Below are positions 1,224 through 34,044 of a stretch of 64,000 nucleotides of DNA, in pieces. Source of the DNA: Candidatus Planktophila vernalis (GTDB taxonomy: Bacteria > Actinomycetota > Actinomycetes > Nanopelagicales > Nanopelagicaceae); the NCBI RefSeq assembly GCF_002288185.1, contig NZ_CP016776.1, positions 1,054,001 through 1,118,000 on the forward strand, written 5' to 3'. Under the pieces are notes generated by a model. It saw only the letters and a list, made by a program, of their open reading frames with translations. It did no database searches and was not told where the DNA came from. Positions within the stretch are counted from its first letter, which is position 1; the number at the start of each line of letters is the position of its first letter. Both the position numbers and the translations under genes were made by a program.

Positions 1224-2585
1224 CTAGCCACGAATAAGGGCGAGAACCTCGTCACGTAGTGCGTTCATACGCTCTGGCTCCCTGGCCTCAACGTTAAGTC
1301 TTAGTAGTGGCTCTGTATTAGAGGGGCGCAGATTAAACCACCATGTGTCCCCATTAACCGTGAGTCCATCAAGATGATCAGTTGTCACCCCGGGCATTGA
1401 GCTAAATGTGGCTTCCACCAATGCAGTTGCTGCAGCTGTATCGGCAACTTTTGAATTGATTTCACCACTAAGGCAATATCGCTGATACGGCTTTAAAATC
1501 TGCGACATCGATTTATCTGACTCCCCCAAAGCTGCAATCGCATGAAGTGCTGCAAGTGCTCCAGAATCTGCTCTCCAGAAATCATCAAAGTAAAAGTGCC
1601 CTGAGTGCTCTCCGCCAAAGATCGCTTTACTCTCCGCCATCATTTTCTTAATATAAGAATGACCAACTCGAGAGCGAAGTCCAACGCCACCATTTTCTTC
1701 AATGACTTCTAATACAGCCCTTGATGAGATTAAATTATAAATAATCTTCGCTCCAGGATTTTTCTTGAGCTCACGCTGTGCAATCAATGATGTTAAGTCG
1801 GATGGATTAACTGCATTTGCTTTCTCATCAACTAAAAAGCATCGATCAGCATCGCCATCAAAAGCTAAGCCCAAATCCGCTCCATGTTCCAAAACTGCCT
1901 TTTGAAGATCTCTCAAATTCTTTTCATCTATTGGATTTGCCTCATGATTTGGAAAAGTTCCATCAAGTTCAAAGTACATCGGGATTAATTCACAGTTAAG
2001 GCGTGCAAATATGGCAGGAGCCGTGTGGCCAGCCATGCCATTTCCTGCGTCCACAACGATTTTAAGTGGACGAATATTGGAGAGATCCACAAGGCTTAAA
2101 AGGTGATCCACATACTCTTCAAGCATGTTCCGTTGTGTTTCAACCCCCACTGATCGAAGCTCAAGTGGAGAACCTTTTCGAACAAAGTTCTCGATTGTTA
2201 GTAATCCAGATTCCTTACCAATTGGGCGAGCCTGACTTAAGCAGAGTTTTATACCGTTGTATTCAGCGGGGTTATGGCTGGCGGTAAACATCGCACCCGG
2301 TAAACCAAGTTTGCCCGAAGCAAAATACAACATGTCTGTTGACGCTAAACCAATTCGAATGACATCCATTCCTAAGGAAGTGACTCCAGCAGAGAATGCA
2401 TCTGCAAGTGGAATTGAGGATGGTCGCATATCTTCACCAATGACAACTGTTCCTGGTTCACGTTGCTGTTGTAGGAAGTGTGCAAAGGCAACACCTGTAG
2501 CAAAAGTGAAGTCAGGAGTTATCTCTTCATCAACGAGTCCTCGAATGTCATAGGCTTTAAAAATATTTGCTATCTCTTGCGACAT
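1224..2585 (-). CDS. manB: Phosphomannomutase/phosphoglucomutase
   Basis: Alpha-D-phosphohexomutase of 453 residues, about normal length. It interconverts mannose-6-P and mannose-1-P (or the glucose equivalents), supplying GDP-mannose for envelope glycans. Visible are the N-terminal FKAYDIRG, the active-site phosphoserine loop TASHNPAEYNG (about residue 102), the metal site DGDADRC (about 244) and the C-terminal phosphate loop RPSNTEP. It follows the DUF3499 gene by 10 bases with AAGGA before its ATG, so the two are probably cotranscribed. Pmm next to DUF3499 and near whiB is also the mycobacterial order (Rv3257c region), which supports the phosphomannomutase reading. A second family member, at 39732, has a different predicted role. 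Confidence 0.93.
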   Translation of the reverse strand: MSQEIANIFKAYDIRGLVDEEITPDFTFATGVAFAHFLQQQREPGTVVIGEDMRPSSIPLADAFSAGVTSLGMDVIRIGLASTDMLYFASGKLGLPGAMFTASHNPAEYNGIKLCLSQARPIGKESGLLTIENFVRKGSPLELRSVGVETQRNMLEEYVDHLLSLVDLSNIRPLKIVVDAGNGMAGHTAPAIFARLNCELIPMYFELDGTFPNHEANPIDEKNLRDLQKAVLEHGADLGLAFDGDADRCFLVDEKANAVNPSDLTSLIAQRELKKNPGAKIIYNLISSRAVLEVIEENGGVGLRSRVGHSYIKKMMAESKAIFGGEHSGHFYFDDFWRADSGALAALHAIAALGESDKSMSQILKPYQRYCLSGEINSKVADTAAATALVEATFSSMPGVTTDHLDGLTVNGDTWWFNLRPSNTEPLLRLNVEAREPERMNALRDEVLALIRG

Positions 2586-7388: not shown

Positions 7389-7688
7389 TTACGCAGAACG
7401 GCGCTTTAAGCGACGACGTTCGCGCTCTGATAGTCCGCCCCAAATTCCAAAACGTTCGTCATGTGCAAGTGCGTATTCCAAGCACTCTGAACGAACATCG
7501 CAGGAAAGGCAAACACGCTTTGCTTCGCGAGTTGAGCCGCCTTTTTCAGGGAAGAAAGCTTCTGGATCTGTTTGCGCACATAGTGCGCGTTCTTGCCAAG
7601 AGAGTTCAATACTCTCGCCGGTCGCTAGTGTGATTTTTGGGCCAGTCGTGGGGGTTGGGGAGTTCGTGGCTTCAGGTTTAATCGGCAT
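7389..7688 (-). CDS. whiB2: WhiB-family iron-sulfur regulator (WhiB2/WhmD-like)
   Basis: WhiB-like transcription factor of 99 residues that should carry a [4Fe-4S] cluster on four cysteines: C37, C60, C63 and C69 (the C-x2-C-x5-C core is complete). After it come the GIWGG turn (81-85) and a basic tail ERERRRLKRR that contacts DNA. In the family the protein works with the principal sigma factor. Placement between manC and the pmm/DUF3499 block matches mycobacterial whiB2 (Rv3260c), so a role in septation, as shown for WhmD, is the best guess. AAGGAG lies upstream of the ATG. Its promoter carries a perfect palindrome over the -10, suggesting repression or autoregulation. Confidence 0.93.
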   Translation of the reverse strand: MPIKPEATNSPTPTTGPKITLATGESIELSWQERALCAQTDPEAFFPEKGGSTREAKRVCLSCDVRSECLEYALAHDERFGIWGGLSERERRRLKRRSA

Positions 7689-7750
7689 AGTCGATTCTCC
7701 TTGAAAACTTCTGGTCTCATCCCTCTTGGAAAAGACTTACTTAAGAGTGA

Positions 7751-7779
7751 ATTACACGCGTGTAAGTCGAATAAGTCAA
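7751..7779 (-). promoter_or_regulatory. whiB promoter with palindromic operator over the -10
   Basis: On the minus strand TTGACT (7779 to 7774), a 17-base spacer and TGTAAT (7756 to 7751) form a near-consensus sigma-70 type promoter. The perfect 14-base palindrome TTACACGCGTGTAA occupies 7752-7765 and covers most of the -10 and the end of the spacer. A dimeric regulator bound there would block polymerase. Confidence 0.7.
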
Positions 7780-14249: not shown

Positions 14250-14861
14250 ATGAGCACTATTGATTCATCAAATAAGCCGCGTTTGCCGCGTGACGAGCGC
14301 CGCGCACTTTTGCTCTCAGCAGCCCTAGAGGTTTTTACTGCTGCTGGTTATCACTCTGCGGCAATGGATGAAATCGCAGATCGCGCAAATGTTAGCAAGC
14401 CAGTTTTGTATCAGCACTTTCCGTCAAAATTAGAGCTTTATCTTGCAGTTCTTGATTTACACATTGACTCATTAGTTTTTGAAATTCAGAGAGCTATCGC
14501 CTCAACTCCTGATAACGCTAATCGTGTGCATGCCACTGTTGATGCATATTTTGCTTTTATCGAAAAAGAGGGTGAAGCTTTCAGACTTCTCTTTGAAAGT
14601 GACATGAGTGTTGAGCCATCTGTGCGTGAGCGCCTTAATCGAATGACTTATGACTGCGCAGCTGCTGCTAGTGCCGTAATTTCTATTGATACAGGTCTTC
14701 CAAAAGAAGCTTCAATGCTCTTAGGTGTTGGAATGATTGGCTATGCCCAAGTAACAGCGCGGCATTGGTTAGATCGAGACAGTGCATTAACGCGTGAACA
14801 GGCAGTTGAATTGGTCAACAACCTCATGTGGCGAGGAATTTCGGGTTTCCCTCGCAATTAA
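14250..14861 (+). CDS. TetR-family transcriptional regulator
   Basis: Regulator of 203 residues. The N-terminal helix-turn-helix is clear: LLSAALEVFTAAGYHSAAMDEIADRAN and VSKPVLYQHFPSKLELY (about residues 19-64), with the usual YQHFPSK. The rest is a helical ligand and dimer domain of TetR_C type. It contains many acidic residues and no transmembrane helix. Ligand and targets are unknown; the neighbours are divergent moeZ and the downstream helicase, neither of which predicts a signal. Probably transcribed as a leaderless message. Confidence 0.92.
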   Translation: MSTIDSSNKPRLPRDERRALLLSAALEVFTAAGYHSAAMDEIADRANVSKPVLYQHFPSKLELYLAVLDLHIDSLVFEIQRAIASTPDNANRVHATVDAYFAFIEKEGEAFRLLFESDMSVEPSVRERLNRMTYDCAAAASAVISIDTGLPKEASMLLGVGMIGYAQVTARHWLDRDSALTREQAVELVNNLMWRGISGFPRN

Positions 14862-32942: not shown

Positions 32943-34044
32943 TTTCTCCGCTCATGTAATCAAGGGCATGCTGCACTTCTTGGGTTAATTCTAGGAGGTT
33001 ATCTCCCAGTAAATTAACATGGCCAATCTTGCGCCCAGGGCGTACTTCCTTCTTATAGTGGTGGAATTTCAACTCTGGCGTGCGGGCCATGAGATGAAGA
33101 TATGGACGATACATATCTTCCTTATCCCCGCCCAAGATGTTGCCCATGACGGCAATGGGGGCAGTCATCTGCGGATTTCCAAGAGGAAGATCTAATACAG
33201 CTCGCAGATGTTGTTCAAACTGAGATGTTAGAGAACCTTCAATTGTCCAGTGTCCAGAATTATGTGGGCGCATCGCTAATTCATTGATGAATAACTCTTG
33301 GCCCTTAACGAAGATTTCAACTGCCATAACCCCAATGACACCAATTTCATTTGCAATATCAAGAGCTAACCTCTGAGCCTTCTCACTTAAATCATTTGAG
33401 AGTTGTGGGGCCGGTGTAATTGTCATTACGCATATGCCATCACGCTGAATTGTTTGCGTTGGAGCCCAGGTTGTTGCCTGTCCATGCGGAGATCTAGCCA
33501 CCATGACAGCTATTTCATAATCAAAATCAATCAGTTCTTCAATTAAGACTTTGCCAACTTCTTTCAATACTGCAGCGAGCTCTGTTTGGCTATTGATTTT
33601 CCATACTCCGCGGCCGTCATAACCACCTGAGATAGCTTTAGCAATTACTGGAAATTCACGCACTTCTTCGGCTTTAGTTACCACGGCGTTCTTTGGTGAA
33701 GGAAAATTGCTCAGGCGCTCTCGCATTGCAGCTTTATCTTGGGAAAATATAAAGCTGGCAGAACTTGGACGGACTACAACTCCATCTGCTTCTAGTGCCT
33801 TAACAATGCTTAGGGGAATTAGTTCATGCTCAAAAGTGATTACATCGCACTTACGGGAAAATGCACGGACAGTTTCTAGATCTTTATAGTCACCGACTAC
33901 GTGGTTTGTTATCTGTGCTCCACTTTCTTGAGCATTATTTGCAAGTAATAAGAGATTGACTCCAAGTGCTGCGGCAGGAGCAACGCTCATGCGTGCTAGT
34001 TGCCCAGCACCAATCACGCCGACTGTTGGAAAATGATTACTCAC
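32932..34044 (-). CDS. purK: N5-carboxyaminoimidazole ribonucleotide synthase PurK
   Basis: ATP-grasp enzyme of 370 residues that carboxylates AIR with bicarbonate and ATP. N-terminal [12 protein letters not shown] (about 8-19), FEHELIP, the ATP-grasp core [32 protein letters not shown], and the metal ligands in [15 protein letters not shown] (about 273) are visible. The start is a GTG at 34044; the preceding birA stop is 4 bases upstream, so birA-purK-purE form one operon, the order also found in mycobacteria. Confidence 0.94.

Follow-up and report, generated by a model that had tools for sequence, protein, structure and literature searches.

In the DNA analysed here, a stretch of 64,000 nucleotides (the window), a perfect palindrome lies across the -10 element of a whiB promoter, which raises the question of whether the palindrome is an operator and, if so, which protein reads it. 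The genome is a single contig of 1.364 Mb, and the organism is probably a streamlined, acI-type freshwater actinobacterium. The promoter is read on the minus strand, where TTGACT (7779-7774) is followed by a 17-nt spacer, TGTAAT (7756-7751) and then the ATG at 7688. The palindrome covers exactly five of the six -10 bases and nine spacer bases; the initial annotation had placed TTACACGCGTGTAA at 7752-7765 on the whiB -10, and the sequence agrees with every coordinate and overlap that it gave. The features of the locus are listed below.

7389-7688, minus strand: whiB2-class gene, 99 amino acids, PF02467 (E 1.5e-27), the gene under the predicted operator
7697-7702, minus strand: ribosome-binding site AAGGAG of whiB (sequence inspection)
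7714-7736, minus strand: hairpin GTCTTTTCCAAGAGGGATGAGAC in the whiB leader, within the predicted 5' untranslated region (seen in individual folds, with varying pair types)
7750-7767, no strand: predicted McdR-type operator of 18 bp, ACTTACACGCGTGTAATT in the minus-strand reading, with 13 of the 14 specified bases of AATnACAnnnnTGTnATT
7751-7756, minus strand: -10 element TGTAAT, overlapped by the predicted operator (sequence inspection and same-genus alignment)
7752-7765, no strand: perfect 14-bp palindrome TTACACGCGTGTAA, the dyad core; TTACA and TGTAA arms invariant in same-genus loci, inner four bases variable
7774-7779, minus strand: -35 element TTGACT in the whiB promoter (sequence inspection; 59 of 60 same-genus rows have TTGAC in the corresponding position, the exception, L025, being ended by a contig edge)

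The WhiB2 class was assigned from similarity to relatives rather than from a tree, and an NCBIfam search with the whiB protein returned no match. A sigma-70 scan listed no promoter, its rule requiring an A at the second position of the -10 element; consequently, the promoter call rests on conservation. A side observation concerns the leader, where the hairpin refolds in most same-genus relatives despite strongly different stem sequences (58 folds). This hairpin was judged from individual folds, by eye, and from pair counts, and RNAalifold found no consensus structure when applied to the raw leader alignment.

Conservation of the dyad at whiB2 promoters

Palindromy by itself is weak evidence and, in one genome, mildly unusual at most. 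The window contains 10 perfect palindromes of at least 14 bp, where 40 dinucleotide shuffles give 4.4 on average, and such a palindrome arises in the 130-bp whiB intergenic stretch in 19 of 2000 shuffles. Conservation is decisive. The same-genus sample comprises 59 whiB2 upstream regions from 58 genomes (one genome contributes two; L007, a second copy of the window's own locus, was dropped), and TTACA-N4-TGTAAT is present in all 59. The inner bases vary (CGCG, AGCG, CGGG, CCGG, TGGG and others). Since the CGCG of the window is not conserved, the perfect character of the palindrome is partly incidental, and the conserved object is TTACA-N4-TGTAA.

The promoter alignment has 59 rows, of which 56 are unique; it includes L007 and leaves out the truncated L025. 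The search expression used to build it fixed TTGAC and a few -10 forms, such that independent evidence comes from the remaining columns only; this expression was matched by 59 of 60 same-genus rows and by 71 of the 80 additional rows, which come from the best of 582 loci. The left arm TTACA, which is absent from the search expression, is invariant in the 56 unique promoters, against a background of mostly variable spacer columns. The right arm GTGTAATT is also invariant, and the dyad starts at the identical column in every row whose promoter is intact (59 rows from 58 distinct loci, with the own locus counted twice and L025 out). When the promoter and dyad were searched as one pattern (at most one mismatch), 58 of 61 same-genus genomes matched, compared with one match for a reversed-pattern control. 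The three genomes that failed to match, G008, G017 and G057, have no strong WhiB2-class match (none, E 1.5e-12 and E 1.2e-16, respectively). The initial annotation had considered that relatives might keep the promoter and lose the palindrome, which would have spoken against its reading; the opposite was found, with the palindrome kept together with the promoter.

Outside the genus, the wider sample was the best 80 of 582 whiB2 loci, twelve of which look same-genus (L035-L045 and L050, the last at 99% protein identity). In this sample, AATnACAnnnnTGTnATT occurs at two mismatches or fewer within 330 bp upstream of 73 of the 80 loci, against 0.55 expected from shuffles, and within 700 bp of 78; the best site within 700 bp of L076 and L099, both Nocardiopsis, has three mismatches. 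With the twelve removed, 66 of the 68 loci apparently outside the genus carry the motif at this threshold. Anchoring the wider loci at the -10 element reveals a second dyad 14 bp downstream that abuts the first. Among the 71 recognised promoters of these best 80 loci, and with columns counted from the first -10 base, the best site (at most three mismatches) begins at -9 in 35, at +5 in 35 and at -23 in one; the twelve same-genus-like loci are all at -9, leaving 23 at -9 and 35 at +5 without them. The site in the window starts at -9, as do those of Cellulomonas, Flexivirga and Dermacoccus. Where a promoter is recognised, the +5 register is found in Mycobacterium (including L072 and L078), Nocardia, Rhodococcus, Amycolatopsis and Saccharothrix, and Streptomyces loci mostly have a two-mismatch site at +5, with L096 better at -9. 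The operator thus shifts between two fixed registers on one promoter. Across 196 genomes of the class, the exact single dyad is present in 85 (reversed-pattern control, 0 of 196) and the tandem form (at most two mismatches) in 44, with one control match.

McdR as the likely regulator of whiB2

The consensus derived here from the whiB and crgA sites, before PMC9040748 was read, is letter-for-letter equal to the published motif of McdR. McdR/ResR (Rv1830) is described as an essential MerR-family protein that represses whiB2 in mycobacteria by binding AATnACAnnnnTGTnATT (PMC9040748). Mutation of either arm or of the spacer length abolishes this regulation, and mutation of the spacer sequence does not (PMC9040748). 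The invariant arms and variable inner bases at the present locus parallel these effects and thereby support an McdR operator, as does the 4-bp spacer of free sequence found between the arms in the 59 same-genus loci. McdR is also reported to bind the promoter of Rv0996/MSMEG_5468, and mcdR is reported to be activated by WhiB2 through cGACACGc (PMC9040748). The Kd for the M. tuberculosis whiB2 promoter is given as 0.33 uM, with some mismatches tolerated, and the terminal regions of McdR differ between lineages and affect DNA recognition (PMC10336103). A ribosomal operon (rplN) has likewise been reported to be under McdR control in M. tuberculosis.

Results from the genome itself are consistent with the presence of McdR. 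The initial annotation had found no evident regulator in the window, and this holds, as the likely regulator is an mcdR orthologue encoded approximately 360 kb from the whiB site (G000:C1:698989-699489). It is one of five MerR_1 matches in the genome. The order of its neighbourhood is gcvH, an FHA protein, ftsR (NF050798), DUF151 (PF02577) and merR, which corresponds to the order of Rv1826-Rv1830 in M. tuberculosis. The protein shares 63% identity with its homologue in the Mycobacterium-like genome G063, 71% with the one in G192 and 61% with the one in G224, and the helix-turn-helix region is closely similar among them; orthology is assigned from gene order and the 63% identity rather than from a tree, "Mycobacterium-like" and the family likenesses being inferred. 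No NCBIfam model names either this protein or the Mycobacterium-like homologue as McdR. A GACAC element (CGTGTCGGTC) lies upstream of mcdR in this genome, as feedback from WhiB2 would predict, and GTGTC is found upstream of mcdR in nine of nine family-f1 genomes examined; three genomes outside f1 have an uncertain mcdR start codon, which leaves their GACAC/GTGTC matches unconvincing. As a separate observation, an inverted repeat like AACCTC...GAGGTT, resembling the published FtsR site, occurs upstream of mcdR in several loci (L401 at about 1268-1292, minus strand; L404, L407, L408 and L411), and mcdR may be regulated by FtsR.

Taken with the mycobacterial loop, the locus has in common the 18-bp dyad with its N4 spacer, the whiB2 target, an orthologous MerR-family protein and GACAC upstream of mcdR. 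The McdR-type operator stands at the whiB2 promoter in 59 of 59 same-genus loci. Two differences count against assignment to McdR. First, the AATnACA/TGTnATT arms are matched in the window at 13 of 14 specified bases, the one exception being ACT for AAT in the outer flank; all 59 same-genus sites likewise have exactly one mismatch to AATnACAnnnnTGTnATT, also in the flank. Second, the operator here lies on the spacer and -10 element, in contrast to M. tuberculosis whiB2, where it is located around the transcription start (PMC9040748); that position is a property of the published example and not of the binding motif. The host also differs, being a non-mycobacterial actinobacterium with a small genome.

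On balance, the palindrome is very probably the operator through which a dimer of McdR, a MerR-family protein of the Rv1830/ResR type, represses whiB2. The initial annotation had read the site as that of a dimeric repressor that may set the division programme, a reading that gains support from a dyad conserved beyond the needs of the promoter and matching the published operator of a whiB2 repressor. One McdR subunit would contact each AATnACA/TGTnATT arm, and McdR bound over the -10 element and the half of the 17-bp spacer next to it would block sigma-A RNA polymerase and lower WhiB2. WhiB2, presumably together with WhiA, would in turn activate mcdR via the GACAC element in its promoter, and the resulting negative feedback loop would set the level of this division regulator. 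Binding, repression and feedback have been demonstrated in mycobacteria; the motif, its conservation, its promoter register, the orthologue and the GACAC element are what is seen here, and from these we infer binding and repression in this organism as well as the steric mechanism. Repression is the predicted sign of regulation here, given that activation is common among MerR proteins bound to promoter spacers (PMC9040748). At 17 bp, the spacer does not call for the distortion by which classical MerR proteins activate, which speaks against activation of that kind. These results suggest a named regulator for a division regulator in a streamlined actinobacterium, and they indicate that the McdR-whiB2 circuit, known from tuberculosis-related bacteria, is widespread in Actinobacteria.

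Several other proteins have to be weighed against McdR. BldD, a known whiB repressor in Streptomyces, might bind the dyad when dimerised by c-di-GMP, and it has a putative orthologue in this genome between nusB and pyrR that keeps an RxD-X8-RxxD signature (NF050110, E 1.1e-29, below the model cut-off). The TNAC and GTNA half-sites are common to the BldD box of Streptomyces developmental promoters (PMC4151990) and the present dyad, and whiB is a BldD target; however, the inner spacing is 5 bp in the BldD box (TNAC-N5-GTNA) and 6 bp (TNAC-N6-GTNA) in the window and the 59 same-genus loci, which makes BldD an unlikely occupant. WhiA or WhiB could act instead through a GACAC-type half-site, as WhiA recognises GACAC and TGACAC occurs in the left arm of several other Actinobacteria. 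The window has TTACAC rather than GACAC, and its symmetric, invariant arms do not suit WhiA, a monomer on an asymmetric site, so that autoregulation of this kind appears very improbable.

A different dimeric regulator, for example FtsR, BldM or the TetR protein encoded at 14250, has a similarly slight probability. FtsR (NF050798) is a division regulator encoded two genes from mcdR, and its control of ftsZ as Rv1828 (PMC6683498) offers the parallel of a MerR-family division regulator from the mcdR cluster; its site is a different 25-bp inverted repeat, and neither the FtsR motif AACCCTAAAGTAAAGGTTGAGGGTA nor the BldM group I site TCACcCgnncGgGTGA fits the whiB dyad when compared by eye. The TetR protein had been put forward by the initial annotation as a formal candidate, and nothing connects it with the dyad. 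Finally, it is extremely improbable that there is no operator and that the left arm arose by chance or as a symmetric by-product of the -10 element, for example in a bidirectional promoter (itself considered and judged unlikely): 14-bp palindromes are not rare in the window, and the reverse-strand TGTAAT is complete where column -10 is A, but that is the case in just 27 of the 56 unique promoters in which TTACA, outside the search expression, is invariant, and in the crgA loci examined the same dyad stands downstream of that gene, flanked by convergent genes. As a side observation, the divergent BldD orthologue between nusB and pyrR (L194:1272-1769, minus strand) keeps RxD-X8-RxxD, the c-di-GMP signature of BldD, in a streamlined genome.

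The dyad beside crgA and elsewhere

Searching the genome with the 18-bp form gave 11 sites, against one in the control. Of the seven that were sorted by position, three are intergenic (whiB2, the crgA side and upstream of infA) and four lie inside open reading frames (142864, 630129, 1143656 and 1087334, the last being 33334-33351 of the window); the other four sites are at 287489, 463376, 479840 and 725861. Single-genome counts of shorter patterns are uninformative: TTACACGCGTGTAA at two mismatches gave 5 matches against 9 in the control, TTACANNNNTGTAA at one mismatch gave 31 against 40, and a pattern search of the window at three mismatches gave chance-level matches. The infA site and the DnaA-box locus beside crgA distinguish this genome from the mycobacterial McdR loop.

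The crgA-side dyad is at C1:10481-10498 (L144:982-999), between the 3' ends of a rhomboid gene and crgA, adjoining TTATCCACA and approximately 10 kb from dnaA, an origin distance taken from this genome only. The crgA sample (L225-L284) comprises 30 same-genus loci and 30 class loci, the latter being the best-scoring and hence a non-random set from 194 genomes with a match. The dyad (at most two mismatches) is found downstream of crgA in 51 of the 60 loci, namely 27 of the 30 from the same genus and 24 of the 30 from the class (shuffles 0.4 and 0.15). All 27 same-genus dyads and 23 of the 24 class dyads (50 of 51) have a DnaA box with no more than one mismatch within 80 bp, and the box is exact in 27 and 18. 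Near the whiB sites, by comparison, a DnaA box at this threshold was found in 10 of 59 same-genus and 11 of 73 wider loci, exact in 3 and 0. The dyad is absent beside crgA in three of the 30 same-genus loci (L280, L281 and L283) and in six of the 30 class loci (L233, L239 and L249-L252); in L249-L252, which belong to families f15 and f17, the DnaA boxes are kept.

The neighbours of the dyad also change. G001, one of the three same-genus genomes that lack the crgA-side dyad, has a site at the rhomboid gene (L301), and in four same-genus genomes the dyad is at the rhomboid 3' end with no crgA nearby (L286, L287, L290 and L301; exact DnaA box in three). In three others it is upstream of gyrB (L305, L415 and L416; gyrB model-confirmed in L415 only), with DnaA boxes at one mismatch. 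That the dyad changes neighbours yet stays with DnaA boxes suggests a role in replication, as a variable gene neighbour (crgA, rhomboid or gyrB) with constant DnaA boxes is expected of a replication-control locus and not of a promoter operator. A tentative proposal is that McdR is an ancient actinobacterial switch coupling division to replication through the whiB2 operator and this near-origin element of dyad and DnaA boxes. McdR bound to the element might alter DnaA titration or inactivation, which, if true, would explain the rise in origin-proximal copy number reported on McdR overexpression in M. smegmatis (PMC9040748). With the element beside crgA, the mechanism by which McdR overexpression increases origin copy number becomes open to experiment. 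No report linking McdR to DnaA was found in the literature searched, most subscription papers lying outside it, and none of the matches listed concerned Rv1830 together with crgA; crgA is not mentioned in the main text of PMC9040748, the supplements with predicted sites being outside this scope.

In Mycobacterium-like genomes, the motif also precedes two other genes (L345-L350, L352 and L355). One encodes SepX/GlpR, identified by NF045516 in L345 and by eye in four similar loci; the other encodes RipA, identified by NF033741 in L350 and by eye in L349 and L352. SepX/GlpR is presumably Rv0996, the published McdR target. MtrA was considered after ripA emerged as a target and was dropped once the published McdR motif matched exactly. 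Seven same-genus matches among those listed (L417-L423) lie inside coding sequence and were discarded. Upstream of infA, the dyad at C1:210356-210373 has counterparts in the corresponding position in three relatives from the genus among the matches listed, G221, G263 and G038 (L413, L414 and L424).
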